This document shows positions 53,895 to 64,000 of a DNA stretch of 64,000 nucleotides, in pieces (the stretch's first letter is position 1; each line of letters starts with the position of its first letter). The position numbers were made by a program, and so were the translations under genes. The notes beneath the pieces are model-generated. The model did no database searches. It was not told where the DNA came from and saw only the letters and a list, made by a program, of their open reading frames with translations. The stretch comes from Actinocatenispora thailandica (GTDB lineage Bacteria > Actinomycetota > Actinomycetes > Mycobacteriales > Micromonosporaceae). The stretch lies in the NCBI RefSeq assembly GCF_016865425.1, contig NZ_AP023355.1:5516198-5580197 (forward strand). The letters are read 5' to 3'.

Positions 53895-54302
53895 TCATGC
53901 CTGACGGATCAACGGGACCTTAAGCTCCTGAGCCAAGAGGTCCAACTCGCCATCGGACCACTCCGTCCGCAGCCGTAAGATCGATCCATCTCTCGACTCA
54001 ACACGCCAGACTCGTCCACCCACAACGATCTGCGCCACCTGACTTCGATCCATCTGGCGCCGCCCCCATTGCATGTCATCAACGTAAACGCGCCCCCGAT
54101 CCAGCCGGATCCACATTCGCCCAACAAAGCGCACACCCGAACCTATGACCACCGAGAAGACGATAAGAGCAAGCAGGTATACAGGCCACGCAGACGGCGG
54201 GAATAAAATTCCAAGAACAAGAAGCACCGCCATGATCACCGCGTTGAGGTACATGGTCGGACTTCGCCAATAGCGTTTTCTCAGCTCTAGGACATATGTC
54301 AT
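53895..54302 (-). CDS. Two-TM protein with PH-like tail, beside SUKH immunity gene
   Basis: 135 residues. MTYVLELRKRYWRSPTMYLN, two TM helices (AVIMAVLLVLGILFPPSAWP, VYLLALIVFSVVIGSGVRFV), then a small beta domain (MWIRLDRGRVYVDDMQWGRR, VAQIVVGGRVWRVESRDGSI). Lower GC than the core genome. A diverged copy of its first third exists at 61389-61516 in the opposite orientation. It follows the SUKH-like gene by about 88 bases and may belong to the same immunity cassette. Confidence 0.72.
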   Translation of the reverse strand: MTYVLELRKRYWRSPTMYLNAVIMAVLLVLGILFPPSAWPVYLLALIVFSVVIGSGVRFVGRMWIRLDRGRVYVDDMQWGRRQMDRSQVAQIVVGGRVWRVESRDGSILRLRTEWSDGELDLLAQELKVPLIRQA

Positions 54303-54389
54303 TGATAGTCCTTACGGCAATGCGGTTCCGAACAGCCCTACTTCGTGCCCGTTCCATGACTCAGTTCGTTCGTCATAGTCACGCTCATT

Positions 54390-54875
54390 CTATTCGCAAT
54401 AATCTCCAATGGAGATATCCATCAATAGGTCGTTCCAAAAACCGGGATCTTCCGAAAGCGCGGATGCATCGATCCTCTGCAACTCGCTTTTGAATTCATC
54501 AGCTGCATGCACGAATCCATCTGGGCCGGACTTATCAGGAAGAAACGGGTAACGCCTCGTAAACGCCTCCAGCAGGGCGGCAAATGTGATCACCGAGCTG
54601 GCAATATATGCGATGTCGGCGTCTATCCGAGAGATAGCCACAACCCGTGCGGTAGTCGTATCAATTCCTAAAATCTCATCTCCGGCATTGCCGATCGAAA
54701 GAAAACTATTTGATCCGATATCAATTGACGAAACGTTTTGCCAATCGCAGTATTCAACCAAGAGGTCCTGCTCTGGCAAACCTTCGTTAGCCAAGAACAT
54801 CTGAGCATCACGGCTATTGAGCCGCGTTGTTGATTCCAGCGGAAATATCGCTCTGCGCACGACCCGACTCGCCAT
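54390..54875 (-). CDS. SUKH-4-like immunity protein
   Basis: 161 residues from the ATG at 54875, with GGAAGG eight bases upstream. The pattern LANEGLPEQDLLVEYCDW, SFLSIGNAGDEILGIDTTTA and VVAISRIDADIAYIASSVIT, then FAALLEAFTRRYPF, fits the SUKH-4 (SMI1/KNR4-related) immunity fold. It begins 24 bases after the stop of the deaminase-like toxin fragment, the position of a cognate antitoxin. Low GC (about 50 percent). Confidence 0.78.
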   Translation of the reverse strand: MASRVVRRAIFPLESTTRLNSRDAQMFLANEGLPEQDLLVEYCDWQNVSSIDIGSNSFLSIGNAGDEILGIDTTTARVVAISRIDADIAYIASSVITFAALLEAFTRRYPFLPDKSGPDGFVHAADEFKSELQRIDASALSEDPGFWNDLLMDISIGDYCE

Positions 54876-54899
54876 AGTCACGACCTTCCGAAAAGGGAG

Positions 54900-55168
54900 C
54901 TAACTGCCGCGGATTGCGCCGCTCGCGATGCCCCCCCCCCCGGCAGCGGAGGTAGTCCAGGCCCAACTCCACGTCACGTTTATGTGTGGATTTTGACCTA
55001 GTGCCTTCGCACACAACCGTGCACAGGGCTGGAGTTCTGAGTAGAGGTCCGTTATTGGCGCGGGATCTACCATCCGCAAAATCTTATTCTCCGCATGGTT
55101 GCCTCTACCTTTTGATGAGCGGGCAACGATCGTCTGGGCCTCTCCGTTCTCATCCAAATACCTGGCCG
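54900..55168 (-). pseudogene. Orphan deaminase-like toxin tip, cut by an IS3 element
   Basis: The open frame runs from the IS boundary (55168) to TAG at 54900. It reads PARYLDENGEAQTIVARSSK, then GRGNHAENKILRMVD and DLYSELQPCARLCAKALGQN, then INVTWSWAWTTSAAGGGGI. The HAE and PCxxxC motifs with the intervening helix are the zinc-site signature of the cytidine-deaminase-like fold used by many polymorphic toxins. No start codon or delivery domain remains; the 5' part is replaced by the IS. An 11-C run (54931-54941) lies near the 3' end. Paired with the SUKH-like immunity gene. Confidence 0.75.
54931..54941. repeat. 11-nt poly-C tract in the toxin tip
   Basis: Eleven consecutive C on the plus strand, encoding Gly-Gly-Gly-Gly near the toxin's C-terminus. 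Length change would alter the last 8-10 residues. Possible slippage site or a sequencing-sensitive spot. Confidence 0.8.
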
Positions 55169-55227
55169 GGGACTGCCCAGGGTTTGGTTGACACCTGATC
55201 TGTGAGGCTGCTGGCCTTGCTGGAAGG

Positions 55228-55521
55228 ATGTTTGCTGTGCCCAAGCCCTATCCCCGTGAGTTTCGGGACAATGTGGTCGCCGTCGCCCGTGCCGGCGGCG
55301 CGCCGTTGACGCAGATCGCGAAAGACTTCGGGATCTCCGAGTCGTGCTTGTCCAACTGGCTGCGTGCCGCGGACGTGGAAGACGGCCAACGTCCGGGAGT
55401 GACCCGCGAGGAGTCCGAACAGCTGCGTGAGGCGAAGAAGCGGATCCGGCTGTTGGAGCAGGAAAACGAGGTCCTGCGCCGGGCCGCTGCCTATCTGGCC
55501 CGGGACATCAACCCAAAATGA
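55228..55521 (+). CDS. IS3-family transposase OrfA
   Basis: 97 residues: helix-turn-helix KPYPREFRDNVVAVARAGGA / LTQIAKDFGISESCLSNWLR and a leucine-zipper-like C-terminus (AKKRIRLLEQENEVLRRAAA). Overlaps OrfB by four bases; a fused OrfAB product in IS3 elements usually needs -1 frameshifting, but here an independent ATG for OrfB is present. Confidence 0.95.
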   Translation: MFAVPKPYPREFRDNVVAVARAGGAPLTQIAKDFGISESCLSNWLRAADVEDGQRPGVTREESEQLREAKKRIRLLEQENEVLRRAAAYLARDINPK

Positions 55522-56408
55522 CCTACCCGCTCGTCCGTGACCTGGCCGCGGCCGACGCCCCTGTCCGGGTGCCGGTCGCGGTGACGTGTCGGGTGCTGGG
55601 CTTCTCCCGGCAGGCCTACTACCAGTGGCTGGCCGAGCCGGTGTCCCAGCGCGACGTGCAGGATGCGTATCTGACCAACGCCGCGATCGATGCCCATGCC
55701 GACGATCCGGAGTTCGGATACCGGCTGGTTGCCGACGAACTACGTGCCGCCGGCCACCACGCCTCCGACAACCGGGTCTGGCGGCTGTGCCGCGACCAGC
55801 GGATCTTCTCGACTCACTCCCGCAAGCGGGAGCTGGGCCGTAGGCCGGGGCCACCGGTGCATGACGATCTGCTCAAGCGTCCTGGAGGTGGCCGGAACTT
55901 CACCGCCTCGGCACCGAACAGGGTGTGGTTGACCGACATCACCGAACACCCCACCGCCGAAGGCAAGCTGTATCTGTGCGCGATCAAGGACCTGTGGTCC
56001 AACCGGATCGTCGGCTACTCCATCGACTCCCGGATGACCTCTGACCTGGCCGTCGCCGCGCTGCAGCACGCCGTCGCGGTGCGCGAACCAGGTGGCACGA
56101 TCGTACATTCCGACCGGGGCAGCCAATTCCGGTCCCGGAAATACGTCACCACACTGCACCAGGCCGGGCTGACCGGATCGATGGGACGGGTCGGTGCCTG
56201 CGGCGACAACGCCGCCATGGAATCGTTCTTCGCCCTGCTGCAAAAGAACGTCCTCAACCGCCGCCGCTGGACCACCCGCCACCAGCTGAAGCTCGCGATC
56301 GTCACCTGGATCGAAGCCACCTATCACCGGCGTCGCCGTCAAACCCGCCTCGGACGACTGACCCCGATCGAGTTTGAGACCATCTACACCACCACACACG
56401 CGGCCTGA
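55518..56408 (+). CDS. IS3-family transposase OrfB (DDE integrase)
   Basis: 296 residues with the full DDE triad: VWLTDITEHPTAEGKLYLCA, IVHSDRGSQFRSRKYVTTLH and GDNAAMESFFALLQKNVLNR, preceded by the N-terminal SRQAYYQWLAEPVSQRDV. Intact and presumably active. Confidence 0.96.
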   Translation: MTYPLVRDLAAADAPVRVPVAVTCRVLGFSRQAYYQWLAEPVSQRDVQDAYLTNAAIDAHADDPEFGYRLVADELRAAGHHASDNRVWRLCRDQRIFSTHSRKRELGRRPGPPVHDDLLKRPGGGRNFTASAPNRVWLTDITEHPTAEGKLYLCAIKDLWSNRIVGYSIDSRMTSDLAVAALQHAVAVREPGGTIVHSDRGSQFRSRKYVTTLHQAGLTGSMGRVGACGDNAAMESFFALLQKNVLNRRRWTTRHQLKLAIVTWIEATYHRRRRQTRLGRLTPIEFETIYTTTHAA

Positions 56409-56494
56409 CACCCGCCAACCCCGAGTGTCAAACAAACTCGGGGCAGTCCCAAGAAGTTTTATATCTCCCATCTTCCCTCCCTTCATAAACGCCC

Positions 56495-57389
56495 CTAAAG
56501 GTTGTCCCGTAATCGTTGGTCCGCTCGGTCGTTGATCTTGGTGTGGAACAGACGATCAGGGCCGATCAGCCGCAGTGGATCCCGGTGTTCACTGGGCTGT
56601 CGGAGCGGCAGTTCGGCAAGTTGGTGGCCATCGTGGCTGGTCGCGGCGGCGAGCAGACCGGCGCTGGCCGCCGGTGGGGCCTGTCGCTGGCCGACCGGGT
56701 GTTGTTGGTGGCCACCTACTACCGCACCAACCTGACCCTGCGCCAGATCGCCCCGCTGTTCGGAGTATCGAAGTCCGCTGCCGGACGCATCGTCGATCAC
56801 CTCGCTCCACACCTGGTCCTGGTGCCCCAGACCCGCCGGCACCGGCCCGAGGCGGTGTTGATCGTGGACGGCACGCTGGTGCCCATCCGCGACCGGGACA
56901 TGTCGGCCCGGTCGAAGAACTACCGGTACTCCACCAACCTGCAAGTGGCCATCGACGCCAACACCCGGATCACCGTCGCGGTGGGAGATCCGTTGCCCGG
57001 CAACCGCAACGACTGCACCGCCTACACCGACTCCGGCATCGATCAGCAGTGCGCCGGCGCGGCGGCGATCGCCGACGGCGGCTACCAGGGCAACCCGGAC
57101 GTGATCATGCCCTACCGCAACCCCCGCGAGGACCAACCGCCGTTGCCGCAGTGGAAACCAGACCTCAACACCGTCCACCGCCGTATCCGCGCCCGCGTCG
57201 AGCACTGCTTCGCCCACATGAAGTCCTGGAAGATCCTGCGTGACTGCCGCCGCAAACGACACGGTGTCTGGTACGCCGCCGCGGGTATCGCGTTGATGCG
57301 CAACCTGACCATGGTCGTATGACTGGTCCAGCTCGGCCGTGAAGCCCTTCCGCATCAACCCATCAAGATCATTACGGGACAACCTTTAG
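56495..57389 (+). mobile_element. Complete IS5-type insertion sequence (895 bp)
   Basis: Perfect 19-bp terminal inverted repeats: CTAAAGGTTGTCCCGTAAT at 56495-56513 and its complement at 57371-57389. The 22 bases before the left end (about ATAAACGCCC) also recur before the partial copy at 61063. The right end abuts the truncated Rhs-Hint toxin gene, which it cut. Confidence 0.9.
56516..57322 (+). CDS. IS5-family transposase (DDE_4 type)
   Basis: 268 residues counted from a TTG at 56516; a GTG at 56543 is equally plausible. Helix-turn-helix YRTNLTLRQIAPLFGVSKSA. DDE residues: Asp in EAVLIVDGTLVPIRDRDM, Asp in GNRNDCTAY or AAAIADGGYQGNPDVIMPYR, and Glu in RIRARVEHCFAHMKSWKIL. Complete, with matching terminal repeats. 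Confidence 0.93.
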   Translation: MVRSVVDLGVEQTIRADQPQWIPVFTGLSERQFGKLVAIVAGRGGEQTGAGRRWGLSLADRVLLVATYYRTNLTLRQIAPLFGVSKSAAGRIVDHLAPHLVLVPQTRRHRPEAVLIVDGTLVPIRDRDMSARSKNYRYSTNLQVAIDANTRITVAVGDPLPGNRNDCTAYTDSGIDQQCAGAAAIADGGYQGNPDVIMPYRNPREDQPPLPQWKPDLNTVHRRIRARVEHCFAHMKSWKILRDCRRKRHGVWYAAAGIALMRNLTMVV

Positions 57390-58335
57390 CGCGTGAGCGT
57401 GCTAATGCGTGTCGTGCCGTGCGTCGTTTGGAGTTCATCGCCGCTCTTCAGGTCAACAGCTTCAGTCCAGCGGTGGCTGCTGTGGTCCCAGAAGCGGTGA
57501 TGGGCGGTCGCGGTGATCTTCTGTTGGCCCTGGCCGTCCTGAAGCGTGATCTGGACGAAGTCGTGGTCAGTGGTGGTGCGGATGACACCATCGACGCGGT
57601 GCTTTTGCGTGCCGTGCTTGTCTGGTTTTTCGTTGGTGACATGATCGCCGATGTGAAGCTTGGCGATGGGTTTCGAGCTGCCGTCTGCGAGAAGGACCCT
57701 CGTGTCTCCGGGGAAGCTGTTGCACCCCTTCGGGCGACCACCCCCATGTGAGGACTCGGCCGACTTCGCCGACTTCCCTACACCCTCTGCGGCATCCTTT
57801 CCTGCACCTTTCGCCGCCTTCTTACCGCCGCTTTCGGCGGTGTCTTTGGCCAGGGATTTTCCAGCGTCCTTGACTGCGGGTTTGACGGCCTTTGAGCCGT
57901 CTTCGGCACCCTTGGTCAAAATCTTGGCGACCTTGACGCTGCCCTTGATCAGCGGCTTGCCCGCGAGCTTGAGGATCTTCCCGACCGGAATGATGCCGAT
58001 CACCGCGAAGCCCAGAGACTCCCCCGCCTCGGCCCAGCGCCCTTCGGTCGCATACCAAACAGCGTTGGCAGCGTCAGCGACGGATCCGGCGACGGGGATG
58101 TAGCCGAACCAGGACAGGATCTCGCTGCAGCAGGGGATCCGGATTCAGGAACCGGCCCAGCCCCGGGCAGTACTCGCGGGCTCCGAGATTGGTCAGACCG
58201 GTGGTGTCGTCTGCGACGCCGCCCAGGAACCCCTTGTCACCGGCCCAGCCGGTGCCGCTGTTGCCGGCGGTGCGGTCTTGCCCGAACGGGGTGTAGGTGC
58301 GTCGGGTCAGCTGTAGGACGTGCCATCGGCGCCGG
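57390..58335 (-). pseudogene. Rhs C-terminus plus truncated Hint domain, frameshifted and cut by IS5
   Basis: From right to left: an Rhs core end (RRTYTPFGQDRTAG, GDKGFLGGVADDTTGLTNLG, AREYCPGLGRFLNPDP) up to about 58125. After an apparent frame jump or deletion comes ILSWFGYIPVAGSVADAANA and AVIGIIPVGKILKLAGKPLI, then the Hint start CNSFPGDTRVLLADGSSKPI. The Hint domain runs through HRFWDHSSHRWTEAVDLKSG and stops at the IS5 end. No toxin tip remains. The 5' part of the Rhs gene is absent to the right. Confidence 0.82.
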
Positions 58336-58341
58336 GTCGGG

Positions 58342-58701
58342 CTAACGCCATTCCGCAACTTGCTCCAACTCGCCTGTTTCGAGGTTCGGCACACCCCAAT
58401 AGTCGCCGATCCTGGTCGAAAAAACGGCAGTCAGTACACCATCACTGACGAAAACAGCGTAGTATCCCAGCCTCCACGACCGCTCACTGGTGACTGCGGG
58501 AGGCACGAGGCGCAGGCGTTCCATTCCGCTTGGCGCGAATACGATCGCGTTATCTAGTCGCCCAGCACTCACGATGGGCTCAACAACGATAACGCTTGGA
58601 GGATTCGCCCAAACGACGACACTGCTCGGCGGCTCGGGAAAGCGCTTCTCTACTCTGACCCCCGGTATTTCCACGCCACATCGGGTTCTCCCTCGTCCCA
58701 T
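58342..58701 (-). CDS. Putative immunity protein next to the Hint-toxin
   Basis: Up to 119 residues (start ATG 58701; a GTG at 58674 is possible): PPSSVVVWANPPSVIVVEPI, ERLRLVPPAVTSERSWRLGY, YAVFVSDGVLTAVFSTRIGD, YWGVPNLETGELEQVAEWR. Intact frame, positioned 35 bases after the toxin at 58737, where the cognate immunity gene is expected. No family recognised; the C-terminal WGVPNLETGEL block looks conserved-domain-like. Confidence 0.6.
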   Translation of the reverse strand: MGRGRTRCGVEIPGVRVEKRFPEPPSSVVVWANPPSVIVVEPIVSAGRLDNAIVFAPSGMERLRLVPPAVTSERSWRLGYYAVFVSDGVLTAVFSTRIGDYWGVPNLETGELEQVAEWR

Positions 58702-58736: not shown

Positions 58737-59648
58737 TCAGGGCGACAGCGCCACTGGGGAACCCACGGGGATGAGCCGGGCACGGTCCGCATTATTCAGG
58801 ATTTCCAATTGAGTACCTCCGCCGGGGAGAATCTGCCCGGTGCTGGGATCATACTGTGGACCCACCATACTTTCCTGGATTCTGATGGGATCCCCACCGG
58901 GGATCCGGTACCGCTGCACTACGGAAACATCCGGCTTCCAGTCGCTTCGGATCGCCAATTGACTCCTTGCATAAGCCTGGTTTGGGATGTCATCGAAGGT
59001 GCCGAACCCACCCGGCCGGCTCACCGGCTGTCCATGCGACAAGACCATGTTGAACTCTTCGCCAGGATCGGCATTCCTGGATAGAACTGGACCGGCATTC
59101 GGCGGTTCGCGGTCTGCCGCCGGCAGAGCGTCTCCGCAGTTGTGGACGAGAACTGGTGTGGCCCCGGCCTTCACATAGTAGGTGTGGAGGCGGTGGATGG
59201 TGAGGTCGTAGGTGGTCTGGGTGGCGGTGTAAAGGTGCAAGGCGACGACCTGGGCCCGGCCGGTGGGGGTTTGCAGGGTGTCGCCGGGGTGGAGGCTGGC
59301 GGCTTGGGTCCAGGTGTGGGTGGTGACATCCCAGAACGGATGATGGGTCGTGGTAGTCAGCGTCGCGGTCGCATGAGCGGCAGCGGGTACGACCGGGCCG
59401 GCGACACCGGCCGGCAGCCGGCGCGACCGGGAGGCCTTTGTGGTGGTGACGGTCAGGTCGACGAAGTCGTGGTCGGTGTGGGTGACGATCACCCGGTCGA
59501 CCCGATGCTTCTCGGTGCCATGCCCGCCGGGCTTGCTGTCGGCGACCTGATCACCGACCTGGAGCGTGTCGATCGGCTGCGACGACCCATCAGCCATCAC
59601 CACCGGCGTATCGCCAGTGAAACTGTGAATCGAACACGCACCAGCACC
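58737..59648 (-). CDS. Displaced polymorphic-toxin cassette: Hint domain plus unknown toxin tip
   Basis: The Hint domain begins at Cys in AGACSIHSFTGDTPVVMADG, continues through RVIVTHTDHDFVDLTVTTTK and THHPFWDVTTHTWTQAASLH, and ends at VLVHNCG (the Hint-terminal Asn-Cys). The tip of about 120 residues then reads ALPAADREPPNAGPVLSRNA, DPGEEFNMVLSHGQPVSRPG and ends at GSPVALSP; it contains DWKPDVSVVQRYRIPGGD and NNADRARLIPVG, which I do not recognise. The first ATG is inside the Hint domain (59603) and an upstream stop lies near 59670, so this is a silent orphan cassette unless recombined behind an intact Rhs gene. Confidence 0.75.
   Translation of the reverse strand, partial: GAGACSIHSFTGDTPVVMADGSSQPIDTLQVGDQVADSKPGGHGTEKHRVDRVIVTHTDHDFVDLTVTTTKASRSRRLPAGVAGPVVPAAAHATATLTTTTHHPFWDVTTHTWTQAASLHPGDTLQTPTGRAQVVALHLYTATQTTYDLTIHRLHTYYVKAGATPVLVHNCGDALPAADREPPNAGPVLSRNADPGEEFNMVLSHGQPVSRPGGFGTFDDIPNQAYARSQLAIRSDWKPDVSVVQRYRIPGGDPIRIQESMVGPQYDPSTGQILPGGGTQLEILNNADRARLIPVGSPVALSP
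59137..59648 (-). repeat. 512-bp Hint repeat, copy A
   Basis: By eye identical to 62723-63234 except one base near its left end. It covers the whole Hint domain, and similarity stops within a few bases of the HNC end on one side and just before the Hint Cys on the other. Copy A carries the unknown tip, copy B a deaminase-like tip. Confidence 0.93.
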
Positions 59649-59818
59649 GCTCGCTCAGTCGTCACGGAACCAGGAGTTCTCGTATCGGCGAGCATTGTTA
59701 CGCTGGGAATTTTTTAGTGGAATTGGTATTCCGGCCTACGGTTTTCCGCCAGGGACACCTAGCCCCGACTTTCACTCAATCAGTAGCGATCGCCTCCGGT
59801 AATCGCACGAACCATGCA
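59649..59818. other. Non-coding 170-bp gap
   Basis: Between cassette A and the gene ending at 59819. AT-rich stretches (GGGAATTTTTTAGTGGAATT near 59710). No gene, terminator or clear promoter identified. Confidence 0.45.
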
Positions 59819-60652
59819 TTAGGGTGACAATTTTAACAAGGCCTCTCGCACAATGCTTTCTGCCTGCCCATGGGCTTCTGGTTCAGGACCAATAGCCTCC
59901 AGAGTTGACCACTTCATATCAAACCGAAATACCGCCCGCATGACTCCGTACCTCTTCCCAACTGACGCGTGCGAGCCCTTGCGGGTATTCGGCAACGCAG
60001 TTTTCAAAGTTAACACAACCTGCTCACTCGCTACCATAACGCAACCACCCCAGGGGTGGAGATCCAGCGGAATCACACAGGAAAAACCGCCCTCCAAAGA
60101 GCCCGAAAGATATCGAGCAATAATGGCCCTATTTATTGCATCGAAATCTGATATGTATCGCCCGCCGCTCGCAGCCATCACCGCGCGGTAAAACATCATC
60201 ATCGATGATGCGTACCAACTTTCAACGATCGCACCGAGCGGGGCAATTGATAGGCACTTACCTTTCCCATGGCTGGTCCGTAATTGCCTTATTTGAGCGT
60301 AGAGTTGGTCAGCTCCGAGTTCGACAGAGCACCACTCTGCCCAGAGCCTCCGTCCTCCAGGGATAGACATCATACAATTCGAAATCACGCTCTTAACGGC
60401 GAGCTCAGGATATCGTTCCGAGAAACTTTTTGCGGGGTCGGGGTTCGTTTTAGTCGAAAACCAACTTCCCATCGCCCACCAATTGAATTGGCACCATGCA
60501 CCACTCAACTCTTCAAACATCAGAGGCTCGTCTTCGCCAGCAGCAGGAAGCCATAACGCTGCGAGTTCCCCATGACCGCTGAGCTTGAGTCCCGACCCGG
60601 TCAAGAACATGGTGACTTCCTGTTCATTGAGCACGTGAAGATCATTTACCAT
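59819..60652 (-). CDS. Unknown 277-residue protein in the toxin locus
   Basis: From the ATG at 60652 with GGAG upstream (CTATGGAGAGCGCAT). MVNDLHVLNEQEVTMFLTGS, LSGHGELAALWLPAAGEDEP, WCQFNWWAMGSWFSTKTNPD, VVLTLKTALPNTRKGSHASV. Aromatic-rich, no signal peptide. Low GC. Its position after the cassette breakpoint and its solitary frame suggest an orphan immunity or effector gene; I do not recognise the family. Upstream in-frame codons to 60883 overlap IS debris and are not believed. Confidence 0.62.
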   Translation of the reverse strand: MVNDLHVLNEQEVTMFLTGSGLKLSGHGELAALWLPAAGEDEPLMFEELSGAWCQFNWWAMGSWFSTKTNPDPAKSFSERYPELAVKSVISNCMMSIPGGRRLWAEWCSVELGADQLYAQIRQLRTSHGKGKCLSIAPLGAIVESWYASSMMMFYRAVMAASGGRYISDFDAINRAIIARYLSGSLEGGFSCVIPLDLHPWGGCVMVASEQVVLTLKTALPNTRKGSHASVGKRYGVMRAVFRFDMKWSTLEAIGPEPEAHGQAESIVREALLKLSP

Positions 60653-60785
60653 ATGCGCTCTCCATAGAAGTAATGCCCACCATTGGGGCCATGATAGTGC
60701 GGTCGCGCATAGGTGGTATGTCCCGGGGTTTTCGGAGGCGAGTTGTTGGATTCTTGTGCCGCTCGATGTTGAAGGAGAGGGTGGT

Positions 60786-61046
60786 ATGGGACGGCGTGGG
60801 TACCCGCCGGAGTTTCGGCGCAGGGTGCTGGACCCGGTGGAGGCGGGCCGGGCGGTGGCCGATGTGGCGCGGGATCTGGGCATCAGCGATCAGTCGATCT
60901 ACACCTGGCGGCGGCAGGACCGCATCGACCGTGGCCTGGAAGCGGGGCGGCGAAGCGACCGAAGACGGCGAGGCTCGCGATCAACGACAGGTTGCGTGAG
61001 TACGTCCAGGAGCGACTCGCCGGAAACATCTGCAGGCCGGACGGCT
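60786..61046 (+). pseudogene. Chimeric transposase debris (IS3 OrfA start fused to IS30 fragment)
   Basis: 60786-60950 encodes MGRRGYPPEFRRRVLDPVEA, ARDLGISDQSIYTWRRQDR, an IS3-type OrfA N-terminus. From about 60955, in another frame, comes RPKTARLAINDRLREYVQER, LAGNICRPDG, matching the catalytic domain entry of IS30 transposases. Each piece is truncated; no terminal repeats seen. Confidence 0.78.
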
Positions 61047-61062
61047 CCCTCCATAAACGCCC

Positions 61063-61226
61063 CTAAAGGTTGTCCCGTAATCGTGGGCGGAGTCGGTCGT
61101 TGGTCTTAGCCGGAGCGAACGATCAGATCCGATCAGCCGCAGTAGATCCCGGTGTTCACGGGTCTGTCGGCTCGGCAGTTCGGCAAGTTGGGACGCATCG
61201 TGGCTGGTCGCGGCGGTGAGCAGACC
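61063..61226 (+). mobile_element. 5' fragment of the IS5-type element
   Basis: Starts with the same 19-bp terminal repeat (CTAAAGGTTGTCCCGTAAT, 61063-61081) and the same upstream ATAAACGCCC. About 145 bp of transposase 5' region follows at roughly 85 percent identity to 56514-56660, then breaks off at GAGCAGACC. A diverged, older copy. Confidence 0.88.
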
Positions 61227-61227
61227 A

Positions 61228-61516
61228 GACCTACTGATGGATATCTCCATTGGAGACTATTGCGAATAGAATGAGCCTGAGAAACGATCCGGATGACGGT
61301 GAAAGTTTCCCGACTATGACGAACGAACTGAGTCATGAAATGGGCACGAAGTAGGACTGTTCGGAACCGCATGGCCGTAAGGGCTGTCCATGACGTACGT
61401 CCCGGAGCTAAGCAAGCGCTATTGGCGGAGCCCAACCATGTACCTCAACGCGGCGATTATCGTAGTGCTTCTTGTTCTTGGAATTTTGTTCCCGCCATCG
61501 ACATGGCTCATATAAG
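61228..61516 (+). pseudogene. Inverted, diverged copy of the SUKH 3' end and two-TM gene 5' end
   Basis: 61228-61266 reads LLMDISIGDYCE and stop, exactly the end of the SUKH-like protein at 54390. The following spacer has a roughly 36-base addition. Then 61389-61516 encodes MTYVPELSKRYWRSPTMYLN, the beginning of the gene at 54302, ending early. About 85-90 percent identity to the reverse complement of 54190-54430. Orientation is opposite to the functional copy, and the junction is at the end of the IS5 fragment. Confidence 0.85.
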
Positions 61517-61594
61517 GTAATACAGGCCCAACTCGACGTGGTGAATGGCGAACTCCGATCAGTAGCATTTGCCGAACGATGGGCTGTTACATCC

Positions 61595-62311
61595 TCATCC
61601 AGAAAAATCATTTAACGTGCGACTCACTAGTTTCATAAGTGTCGGATCAAGAGCATTTGGATTCTCCGGATTCCTCGGACTATACTGCCCGTCCGAAACC
61701 AATACCCCAGAGTCAAGTTTACGCCACGTCGGCATCGGCCAGAAAGGACTGTGATGACACCATTGACGCGCCAATTCGGCAGCCGCACGAGGATCACCGT
61801 TCACCTGCCGGATCCTTGACAGAACGTGCTCATAGTAGTTATTGACAGGCTGGGCTTCACCAACGATCGGAACTAAGAGAAGGATCTCGAATGAGGTTGA
61901 GTCAATCCCCGCATCCAATGACAGATATTCGCCCGAGGAGAGTCCAGGGCCAAGATAGTGGCCCTCCAATGCAGAGATGCGAGCTTCCCGAGCCACATCC
62001 GCAAATTGGAGAACAAAGTCGATACCAGGATCATCCTCAAAATTCCGATATATCACCAGCATTGAGCAGTTATTTGACATCTTAATCCGGAATACTGGCC
62101 ACTCATCTGGGTTTTTCAGCTCGTGATACGCCGTCCTCACTGCGTCTGGCTGCACACCGAAGGCGGGACACACGAGGTCTAGGTCCTCATCATCATAGAC
62201 AAAGTGTGCAGCGAGATGTTCTGCGCGCAAGGCGTTTACATCAGTCTCAACAAGTATGGCATCAAGAGATCCAAGCGCCGCTTCAATATCAAGATATTGC
62301 GTAATACGCAC
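61595..62311 (-). CDS. Putative immunity protein for the deaminase-like toxin
   Basis: 238 residues starting two bases after the toxin stop (62314). MRITQYLDIEAALGSLDAIL, VYDDEDLDLVCPAFGVQPDA, MSNNCSMLVIYRNFEDDPGI, FEILLLVPIVGEAQPVNNYY. Acidic overall, as usual for toxin-binding immunity proteins. I recognise no family. Low GC, intact frame. Confidence 0.68.
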   Translation of the reverse strand: MRITQYLDIEAALGSLDAILVETDVNALRAEHLAAHFVYDDEDLDLVCPAFGVQPDAVRTAYHELKNPDEWPVFRIKMSNNCSMLVIYRNFEDDPGIDFVLQFADVAREARISALEGHYLGPGLSSGEYLSLDAGIDSTSFEILLLVPIVGEAQPVNNYYEHVLSRIRQVNGDPRAAAELARQWCHHSPFWPMPTWRKLDSGVLVSDGQYSPRNPENPNALDPTLMKLVSRTLNDFSG

Positions 62312-62313
62312 TA

Positions 62314-63252
62314 TTACCTCCTAGAGCGCCAAGGCCGCCAGAATGTCCGAAACGCAGTCTTGTCGGCACGACCCATAAATGGCCGACCGCCCAGAGTCAA
62401 TGAGTTCGGTCGCATAAATTTCGCACATATGGCTTGGCACACATTTCGAGATGTCCCGCCATAGACAACTTCCTCATTAGACGCAAGGCTGTTAAATATC
62501 GTCTCCTCAGCATGCCCGGCGCCTCGTACGAATTCTTCGCCTGCCCCCAGTTCCCACGACTTCGGCATTGCCCTGTCTCCATTTATAGCGATTCGAATTG
62601 CCACGGAGCCAGTCTCCACATTTCGAACCCCCATAACGGCCGTGGTTCCTCCGCTCCAACCTCGCTGCGCCTCGAGGTCTTGCGCACGGCCCTGCGCAGC
62701 AGTTGCCTCCGCCTCGTAGCCACAGTTGTGGACGAGGACTGGTGTGGCCCCGGCCTTCACATAGTAGGTGTGGAGGCGGTGGATGGTGAGGTCGTAGGTG
62801 GTCTGGGTGGCGGTGTAAAGGTGCAAGGCGACGACCTGGGCCCGGCCGGTGGGGGTTTGCAGGGTGTCGCCGGGGTGGAGGCTGGCGGCTTGGGTCCAGG
62901 TGTGGGTGGTGACATCCCAGAACGGATGATGGGTCGTGGTAGTCAGCGTCGCGGTCGCATGAGCGGCAGCGGGTACGACCGGGCCGGCGACACCGGCCGG
63001 CAGCCGGCGCGACCGGGAGGCCTTTGTGGTGGTGACGGTCAGGTCGACGAAGTCGTGGTCGGTGTGGGTGACGATCACCCGGTCGACCCGATGCTTCTCG
63101 GTGCCATGCCCGCCGGGCTTGCTGTCGGCGACCTGATCACCGACCTGGAGCGTGTCGATCGGCTGCGACGACCCATCAGCCATCACCACCGGCGTATCGC
63201 CAGTGAAACTGTGAATCGAACACGCACCAGCACCAGCCTCAGCGCCGGTGAT
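62314..63252 (-). CDS. Polymorphic-toxin cassette: Hint domain plus deaminase-like tip
   Basis: In-frame from about 63252 (no start codon there; first ATG 63189). Segment GAITGAEAGAGACSIHS, then the Hint domain as in copy A to VLVHNCG. The tip reads YEAEATAAQGRAQDLEAQRG, GWSGGTTAVMGVRNVETGSV, then GAGHAEETIFNSLASNEEVV and YGGTSRNVCQAICAKFMRPN. HAE plus CxxxC (CQAIC) is the zinc-site signature of the deaminase-fold toxins and parallels HAEN...CARLC of the orphan tip at 54900. Hint domains in such proteins release the toxin by self-cleavage. The upstream Rhs part follows in a shifted frame (63257-63640). Confidence 0.78.
   Translation of the reverse strand: MTGAEAGAGACSIHSFTGDTPVVMADGSSQPIDTLQVGDQVADSKPGGHGTEKHRVDRVIVTHTDHDFVDLTVTTTKASRSRRLPAGVAGPVVPAAAHATATLTTTTHHPFWDVTTHTWTQAASLHPGDTLQTPTGRAQVVALHLYTATQTTYDLTIHRLHTYYVKAGATPVLVHNCGYEAEATAAQGRAQDLEAQRGWSGGTTAVMGVRNVETGSVAIRIAINGDRAMPKSWELGAGEEFVRGAGHAEETIFNSLASNEEVVYGGTSRNVCQAICAKFMRPNSLTLGGRPFMGRADKTAFRTFWRPWRSRR
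62723..63234 (-). repeat. 512-bp Hint repeat, copy B
   Basis: Matches copy A (59137-59648) with one difference seen by eye. Offset 3,586 bp, same orientation, so recombination between the copies would delete 3.6 kb and swap the toxin tip. Confidence 0.93.
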
Positions 63253-63256
63253 CGCT

Positions 63257-63640
63257 CCCGATCACCGTCTCTTTGACCAGGGCCTTCGCGCTACAGCCAC
63301 CGGCTGCCGAACACGTCGGCCCGTAAGACACAGCCGAGGCCACCGCACCGGGCAACGCCCCGCAGGCCACCATCCCCAGACCGGTCCAGCCGATCGCGGC
63401 ATCACGCCGGACTCCCACCCCGATCGACACCACGGTGGAGACCCGCGGTGGGGTGGTTCTGCGCCCAGTGCAGCGCGGAGTTACCGACCTGCTTGGTCTT
63501 GCAGAACGACAGCCAGTCACACTTCTTCGGCGCCGGCTTCGCCGGCGGCGGAGGCGGCGGGCTGTAAGCCACCAGGTTGTAGCACGAGTCGCCCCGAGTC
63601 GTTCTTACCCTGGAACTGGTCATACTGCGCGGTCGGGTCA
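63257..63640 (-). pseudogene. Rhs pre-toxin region with three +1 homopolymer shifts
   Basis: Pieces in successive frames: TDPTAQYDQFQGKNDSG, CYNLVAYSPPPPPPAKPAPK, KTKQVGNSALHWAQNHPTA, VSTVVSIGVGVRRDAAIGW, GMVACGALPGAVASAVSYGP, GCSAKALVKETVI. Removing one C from 63592-63595, 63442-63444 and 63257-63259 joins them and the Hint domain into one protein. A stop (TAG) near 63645 and loss of Rhs similarity mark the right border. Either decay or assembly errors. Confidence 0.75.
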
Positions 63641-63770: not shown

Positions 63771-63983
63771 TCAGCCACTCCCCCGAGGCAGCTCCGGGCC
63801 AATATAGCCAGTTCGCGTGGTTGGGTCCGAGACGAGCCTCCCGTACAAATCCGCGCGGGCACTCTCCTCTGTTACGAATGTTCGCTTGTCTCTCTGGTGG
63901 CCACGCTCGGAATAAAACACGGACCACTGGCCGTCCGAGGATCGCGTTAAGCAATATGTTTCATCCAACTCTCCGCCGATCAT
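63771..63983 (-). CDS. Small protein at window edge, possibly continuing beyond it
   Basis: 70 residues: MIGGELDETYCLTRSSDGQW, SVFYSERGHQRDKRTFVTEE, SARADLYGRLVSDPTTRTGY and a short tail. The frame is open to the window end, so the true start may lie outside. Reads like a compact immunity-type domain (GxWxVFYxERG, TEExAxxxLxxRLxxD). Low GC, same strand as the toxin genes. Confidence 0.55.
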   Translation of the reverse strand: MIGGELDETYCLTRSSDGQWSVFYSERGHQRDKRTFVTEESARADLYGRLVSDPTTRTGYIGPELPRGSG

Positions 63984-64000
63984 ATAGGAGGTAGAAGAAA

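Follow-up and report, generated by a model that had tools for sequence, protein, structure and literature searches.

The window analysed here, 64,000 nucleotides of the genome of Actinocatenispora thailandica, carries two near-identical copies of a Hint domain, Hint-A and Hint-B, each followed by a different toxin tip. The two copies very probably head displaced, silent toxin–immunity cassettes of an Rhs polymorphic-toxin locus, and the repeat that they form would be the scar of a recent crossover at the Hint domain. Positions are those of the window, except where prefixed G000:C1, which denotes the contig of the source genome.

An earlier note on this DNA had described a duplication of 512 bp covering the Hint domain with one difference, and this was borne out. 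In an in-register comparison at an offset of 3586, positions 59137-59648 and 62723-63234 form a direct repeat identical at 511 of 512 positions. The sole mismatch (59151/62737) is a synonymous change at the third position of a valine codon, GTT versus GTC, placed 12 nt ahead of the VHN end of the domain. Background identity is reached at the very next base on either side (59136 and 59649); BLAST returned the same repeat as 515 bp at 99.6%. Each copy consists of four residues (GAGA), the Hint domain from Cys1 to VHN (CSIHSF...VLVHN) and the Cys that follows. Both copies lie on one contig, and their four flanks are all distinct DNA. A search of the whole genome (7,426,695 bases) with the 512-bp query returned both copies and one weak match of 123 bp at 72%, which is a truncated third domain, Hint-C, at 57554-57676. 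Among 61 genomes no close relative of the Hint was found at the DNA level: 39 of them match at E 0.001, but the lowest E-value outside the source genome belongs to a match of 72% over 208 bp.

Hint-A (39.3 bits) and Hint-B (39.4 bits) exceed the curated cut-off of 27.7 bits for the PT-HINT family PF07591, while Hint-C scores 26.6 bits in a protein scan, just under the cut-off, and 28.5 in a genome search. The residues of Hint splicing are Cys1, TxxH and HN-Cys; they are present in both Hint-A and Hint-B, within CSIHSF, TTTHHPF and VLVHNC. Both copies are predicted to be self-cleaving.

Similarity had been said to end just past VLVHNC, where the tips diverge. Identity indeed drops at once at this point, and BLASTP shows no relationship between tips A and B (best E 0.23). 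Tip B, previously labelled unknown, can now be described as Tne2-like: phmmer matched its residues 22-98 to Tne2 (PDB 6b12, 5.3e-6), the same search giving a fibronectin chain at 6.6e-4 which looks like a chance match. Tne2 is an NADase. The stretch singled out in the earlier note begins at position 58737, where the tip-B frame ends. HAE together with CxxxC, a paired-Cys zinc motif, is a deaminase-like signature. In tip A, labelled deaminase-like in the earlier note, both motifs are invariant in all five aligned members, but no Pfam family matched the tip over its cut-off. A predicted model of tip A has a mean predicted local distance difference test score (pLDDT) of 73.5 and a predicted template modelling score of 0.74, with residues 96-115, which hold the Cys pair, below a pLDDT of 50. 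Among 397 genomes of the order, relatives of tip B were found in the source genome only, with at most 10 candidates scored per genome, and tip A was found in three, the source genome included. One homologue of tip A (L101) lies in an Rhs frame behind a Hint 35% identical to Hint-A, another (L102) follows an Rhs core with no Hint, and others sit behind Hints in L058, L035, L038 and L044. The tip A family has thus been joined to several heads, since its homologues sit behind dissimilar Hints or a Hint-less Rhs core.

Both Hint copies look silent, a prediction made from sequence. No ATG, GTG or TTG lies ahead of Cys1 in the Hint-A or Hint-B frame, and the first possible start is a GTG within the Hint itself, at 63189 in cassette A and 59603 in cassette B. 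No open frame enters Hint-B from upstream, and neither cassette carries a delivery region. Nor was an intact main rhs gene found at the locus. The local Rhs gene, to the right of the window and upstream of the cassettes, retains an Rhs_assc_core match (73.4 bits, G000:C1:5581188-5581436, minus strand). Nothing in it corresponds to residues 1-802 of the other Rhs frame in the genome, which is 2151 codons long, and what remains of the local gene is spread over three frames. Its own tip is a third one, TNT, without a PT-HINT match.

The cassettes differ in how much of an Rhs gene they retain. Cassette C keeps 189 bp of core, 89.4% identical to the local Rhs gene, and cassette A keeps 283 bp of pre-Hint (63292-63574), 78.8% identical to that gene in a self-comparison. 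Cassette B keeps nothing matching the local gene, the same comparison finding no similarity to it upstream of Hint-B. The displacement joints accordingly fall in the Rhs core in cassette C, in the pre-Hint in cassette A and at the Hint in cassette B. Tips A, B and C follow in this order on the minus strand, each with an immunity gene behind it; that of tip C is recognised as SUKH-4, and the others are presumed from their position.

Tandem Hints in other actinobacterial loci

The arrangement is found again in other actinobacteria. The set examined for recurrence held 63 sequences: the window locus, 42 further loci and 20 fetched regions. Fifteen of these regions came from a family search (among the matches listed), four from the same genus and one from the source genome; 13 of the 15 were picked for a short Hint frame, and L084 and L088 for two Hints close together. 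Given this biased choice of regions the counts are no estimate of frequency, and L084 and L088 serve as illustrations of the pattern. By the motif used, at least two Hint ends are present in 13 of the 63 sequences and none in 8. A looser motif gave extra Hint-like ends in L068, L071, L073, L086, L091 and L092, which were left out of the pairs.

In 18 of 19 same-strand Hint pairs, in-register DNA similarity stops between -25 and +11 nt from VHN; the only pair without similarity, in L047, looks like a chance occurrence of the motif. Eleven pairs found by the motif share at least 200 bp; their identities run from 82.0% to 99.6%, with the window pair at the top, and their similarity stops at -25 to +7. 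A twelfth long pair, in L088, was added by hand, one of its Hint ends having been missed by the motif (1,133 bp, 95.3%, ending at +2 from VHN). Similarity thus stops between -25 and +7 nt from VHN in all 12 long tandem pairs (at least 200 bp in register), while their left edges range from -237 to about -1355. The seven remaining pairs share just 49-60 bp. Of the 12 long pairs, 11 have unrelated tips.

The 71 Hint ends found in 55 of 65 scanned sequences carry tips that form 50 clusters. Tips are unrelated in all 17 pairs of at least 85% identity, of which 16 are true Hint pairs (L080/L086 being excluded), and in 92 of 99 pairs of at least 80%.

The excluded pair L080/L086 (98.8% over 500 bp) is no Hint pair, as its block is mostly other DNA with just the last ~48 bp of a Hint. 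The two regions belong to one genome, and a 1,224-bp block at 97.3% (L080 11645-12866, L086 11268-12484) stops 3 bp past the VHN of this Hint tail, with different tips behind. L086 9717-16341 is itself an array of several cassettes with differing tips, some headed by just the last 48-52 bp of a Hint.

Three loci display the arrangement downstream of an open frame of over 2,200 codons. L040, from Actinomadura bangladeshensis, has a 2284-codon open Rhs frame that ends in a Hint and tip, and behind it a second Hint with another tip (443 bp, 96.2%). In L084 a 2428-codon Rhs frame precedes a 418-codon frame made up of pre-Hint, Hint and tip (874 bp, 89.2%), and in L088 a 2405-codon frame is followed by one of 526 codons. 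The Rhs core was over its cut-off in both loci scanned for it, L040 and L084. Together these comparisons of sequence support the view that a Hint pair with unlike tips is a recurrent arrangement in actinobacterial loci.

Origin of the repeat

A circle model was proposed for enterobacterial Rhs cores in Jackson 2009 (PMC2935791), a passage of which describes old tips shunted to a silent position. On the same lines, homologous recombination would insert a new tip with its immunity gene ahead of the old tip, which would be shunted downstream together with a piece of the 3' end of the gene. In the window, a single recent crossover at the Hint could have brought a circle, X-Hint-tipA-immA (imm, immunity gene), into a pre-Hint-Hint-tipB-immB gene. 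The product would be pre-Hint-Hint-tipA-immA-...-X-Hint-tipB-immB, which is the layout seen in the window, and the 3.6-kb deletion envisaged in the earlier note would be the reverse of this insertion. The circle, direction and timing of the event are what we infer from that layout. In favour of a recent crossover at the Hint, the Hint pair is identical at 511 of 512 positions and has sharp edges, whereas the other remnants share 79% and 89% with the local Rhs gene. The 12 long pairs ending near VHN, the several heads joined to the tip A family and the uneven third-position mismatches of some pairs count in favour of the displacement reading as well.

The picture would be the same had a recent gene conversion homogenised the Hints of two older cassettes, leaving their tips unmoved, and the layout does not decide between crossover and conversion. 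In cassette A a diverged, frame-broken pre-Hint lies directly beside the near-perfect Hint-A, as conversion would predict, and the mosaic mismatch patterns of the pairs in L039 and L056 point in the same direction. The contrast between pre-Hint and Hint is however indirect, the former being compared between cassette A and the local gene and the latter between cassettes A and B, and a simple insertion at the Hint yields the same picture. Conversion, the main rival, is a possible origin, albeit a somewhat doubtful one.

Several points weigh against the proposed crossover and displacement. Crossover, gene conversion and plain segmental duplication are inseparable from a single assembled genome, and purifying selection on Hint proteins alone would likewise set a boundary of similarity near the Hint end. 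In L070 the tips behind the two Hints are related to each other (31%, E 7.5e-8), and this pair could be an ordinary duplication. The mosaic signal for recombination is weak. Third-position mismatches are unevenly spread, with long clean runs (p <0.01), in two of 11 pairs (L039, 0 of 5,000 shuffles; L056, p 0.005; both uncorrected) and not at p <0.05 in the other nine. Mismatches lie closer to the tip than expected in four of 10 pairs tested (L039, L046, L056 and L070; p <0.05, uncorrected), with no such shift in the other six, and uneven protein constraint could contribute to these patterns. Immunity roles are presumed from position, SUKH-4 excepted. Finally, the frame breaks of the local Rhs gene may be partly sequencing error.

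The earlier note had interpreted the repeat as a recombination switch, in which RecA would cross Hint-A with Hint-B within a population, with loss of 3.6 kb and exchange of the displayed tip. One part of this stands: 512 bp at 99.8% in direct orientation offers ample homology, the copies being long and similar enough to serve as a handle, and Koskiniemi 2014 (PMC3967940) includes an account of recombination between main and orphan genes over 522 bp at 95% in Salmonella LT2. The remainder does not. Cassettes A and B have neither a delivery gene nor a start ahead of Cys1, the local Rhs gene is 5'-truncated and lies in three frames, and a cross of Hint-A with Hint-B, deleting 3,586 bp, would give a product still detached from the delivery gene. 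A live switch in the source genome is highly improbable and was rejected on these grounds, namely a broken delivery gene and two Hint copies devoid of a delivery region and of a start before Cys1. The locus is now a decaying fragment inside an island, with no working switch in the source genome.

Still less probable is an intein-like mobility of the Hint, copied precisely into a new site. The repeat does comprise the Hint with almost nothing else, and similarity between the first two copies in L040 likewise starts near the Hint start. Against this, no homing-endonuclease family reaches its cut-off in either frame (Hom_end_hint, 17.8 bits against 32.1), left edges vary widely in other Hint pairs, and Hint-B has no open frame leading into it from upstream; homing was rejected for the want of an endonuclease family over cut-off and for the variable left edges elsewhere. 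An assembly artefact, with both copies on a single contig between four distinct flanks, one fixed difference between them and similar tandem Hints in other assemblies, is very unlikely.

Returning to the crossover, it may tentatively be suggested that the Hint serves as a DNA-level handle for tip–immunity circles, such that the joints of protein cleavage and of recombination coincide at VHN-C. The window would then perhaps be the frozen product of one such event, and the 3,586-bp segment the circle. C-terminal displacement, known from enterobacterial Rhs, would be extended to actinobacterial Rhs loci, with the shared homology pointing to the Hint domain instead of the Rhs core. If Hint-mediated exchange is true, one domain would set both the site at which the protein is cut and the site at which tips are swapped in the DNA. 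A search of the open-access literature found, among the titles and abstract openings listed, none concerned with Hint copies as a recombination handle in actinobacterial Rhs loci.

The array and its island

Read along the minus strand, the array begins with the Rhs gene fragment, its TNT tip and a presumed immunity gene. Cassette A follows, with the pre-Hint remnant, Hint-A, tip A and a presumed immunity gene, and then remnants resembling insertion sequences (IS) and gene X. Next come Hint-B, tip B and its presumed immunity gene, then the Rhs core remnant and Hint-C, which is truncated at an IS5-like element. The order closes with an IS3-like element, whose end is overlapped by an XOO_2897-like deaminase tip, and a SUKH-4 immunity gene. 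At E 1 neither Pfam nor NCBIfam gave a match for the presumed immunity genes of tips A and B, and gene X matches no family over its cut-off, giving just DUF1561 at 11.2 bits, below the cut-off. Coordinates are collected in Table 1.

Table 1. Features of the cassette array, from the local Rhs gene leftwards.
Feature	Position	Strand	Basis or remark
Local Rhs gene, right of the window, upstream of the cassettes	about G000:C1:5580243-5584485	-	TNT tip
Presumed immunity gene behind the TNT tip of the local Rhs gene (part within the window)	63774..64000	-	
Decayed pre-Hint remnant at the head of cassette A, its Rhs-like pieces out of frame with one another	63240..63640	-	
Hint-A, repeat copy 1	62723..63234	-	PF07591
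Cassette A open frame: Hint-A and deaminase-like tip A	62317..63261	-	List of open reading frames, motifs
Presumed immunity gene of tip A	61595..62311	-	Position directly behind tip A
Remnants between cassettes A and B	60900..61510	.	Self-comparison
Gene X, an orphan that may be the immunity gene of a lost cassette	59819..60652	-	Position
Hint-B, repeat copy 2	59137..59648	-	PF07591
Cassette B open frame: Hint-B and Tne2-like tip B	58737..59654	-	List of open reading frames, phmmer
Presumed immunity gene of tip B	58342..58701	-	Position behind tip B
Rhs core remnant heading cassette C	58121..58309	-	89.4% over 189 bp to local Rhs gene
Cassette C: post-core region and Hint-C, truncated at the IS edge	57386..58144	-	
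IS5-like transposase element interrupting cassette C	56495..57385	.	Frame 56516-57322; family by eye
IS3-like element, two transposase frames (55228-55521, 55518-56408)	55228..56408	+	Family by eye
Tip C, XOO_2897-like deaminase	54900..55244	-	PF14440, E 8.4e-14; overlaps IS3-like end
SUKH-4 immunity gene behind tip C	54390..54881	-	PF14435, E 9.5e-14

Between cassettes A and B, positions 61045-61226 are 85% identical to 56477-56659, the start of the IS5-like element. This start has three copies in the genome (85-86%), the third being at G000:C1:1611110-1611278, and two of the three fall inside the array. Next to it, 61228-61507 is inverted relative to 54185-54431 (77.5%), which places one copy between cassettes A and B and the other at the left end of the array, where it overlaps a small membrane-like frame (by eye).

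The array occupies a genomic island between 53112 and 68280 in window numbering (contig C1), reaching past the right end of the window, and the local Rhs fragment begins at its right edge. The flanks of the array are 15.2 kb apart here, compared with 2.1-2.2 kb in two genomes of the same genus (G001 and G003), whose inter-flank DNA has no convincing similarity to the array. The inter-flank contents of these two genomes differ and share no similarity with each other, suggesting a possible insertion hotspot. A further genome of the genus, G002, has a different left neighbour, and comparison of a 20-kb stretch of it gave no match to any part of the array. The G+C content of the island is 62.5%, against 72.1% in window 1-50000 and 69.4% in the right flank.

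Elsewhere in the source genome, a second Rhs locus (G000:C1:3900000-3919999), which holds the 2151-codon frame, has a displaced Hint remnant downstream, in pieces (L099 11492-12342, minus strand). Rhs core matches at G000:C1:4985077-4985313 and 4301609-4301851 lie in short frames of 454 and 581 codons and are possibly decayed Rhs loci.

Comparison with known systems

The closest parallels are found among Rhs loci of enterobacteria. The displacement arrays of Enterobacteriaceae, as portrayed in sections of PMC2935791, likewise have dissociated tips downstream of the Rhs core. In those arrays it is the Rhs core that is shared, whereas here the near-identical pair shares the Hint; moreover, the relatives found here are actinobacteria, and what is left of the delivery gene is a truncated piece within an island. 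The orphan rhs of Salmonella LT2 is also alike, in that the portion of PMC3967940 devoted to it describes, next to the main rhs gene, an orphan tip that lacks signals for initiation or export, with ~0.5 kb of near-identity. The repeat in that case joins a main and an orphan gene, and recombination was demonstrated according to the same account, whereas in the window it joins two orphans and no working main gene was found.

Other systems place a Hint-like domain at the same joint. In Neisseria, MafB-CT cassettes of one class are headed by an A-type bacterial intein-like (BIL) domain, which is Hint-like, and followed by an immunity gene, and another class lacks an initiation codon, as here; both are described in passages of PMC4287609. 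By the same passages, the BIL-headed class has a TTG start, misses the first 7 residues of the BIL and belongs to another delivery protein, whereas the Hint in the window comes after Rhs and is complete from Cys1 onwards. A BIL also sits at the tip joint of Pseudomonas CdiA, as mentioned in part of PMC4725963. Finally, the PT-HINT pretoxin domain, in the relevant part of Zhang 2012 (PMC3482391), stands directly before a variable toxin tip, as do Hint-A and Hint-B. The same part of that work has tips replaced by standalone cassettes; Hint copies as repeated DNA are the feature seen here.

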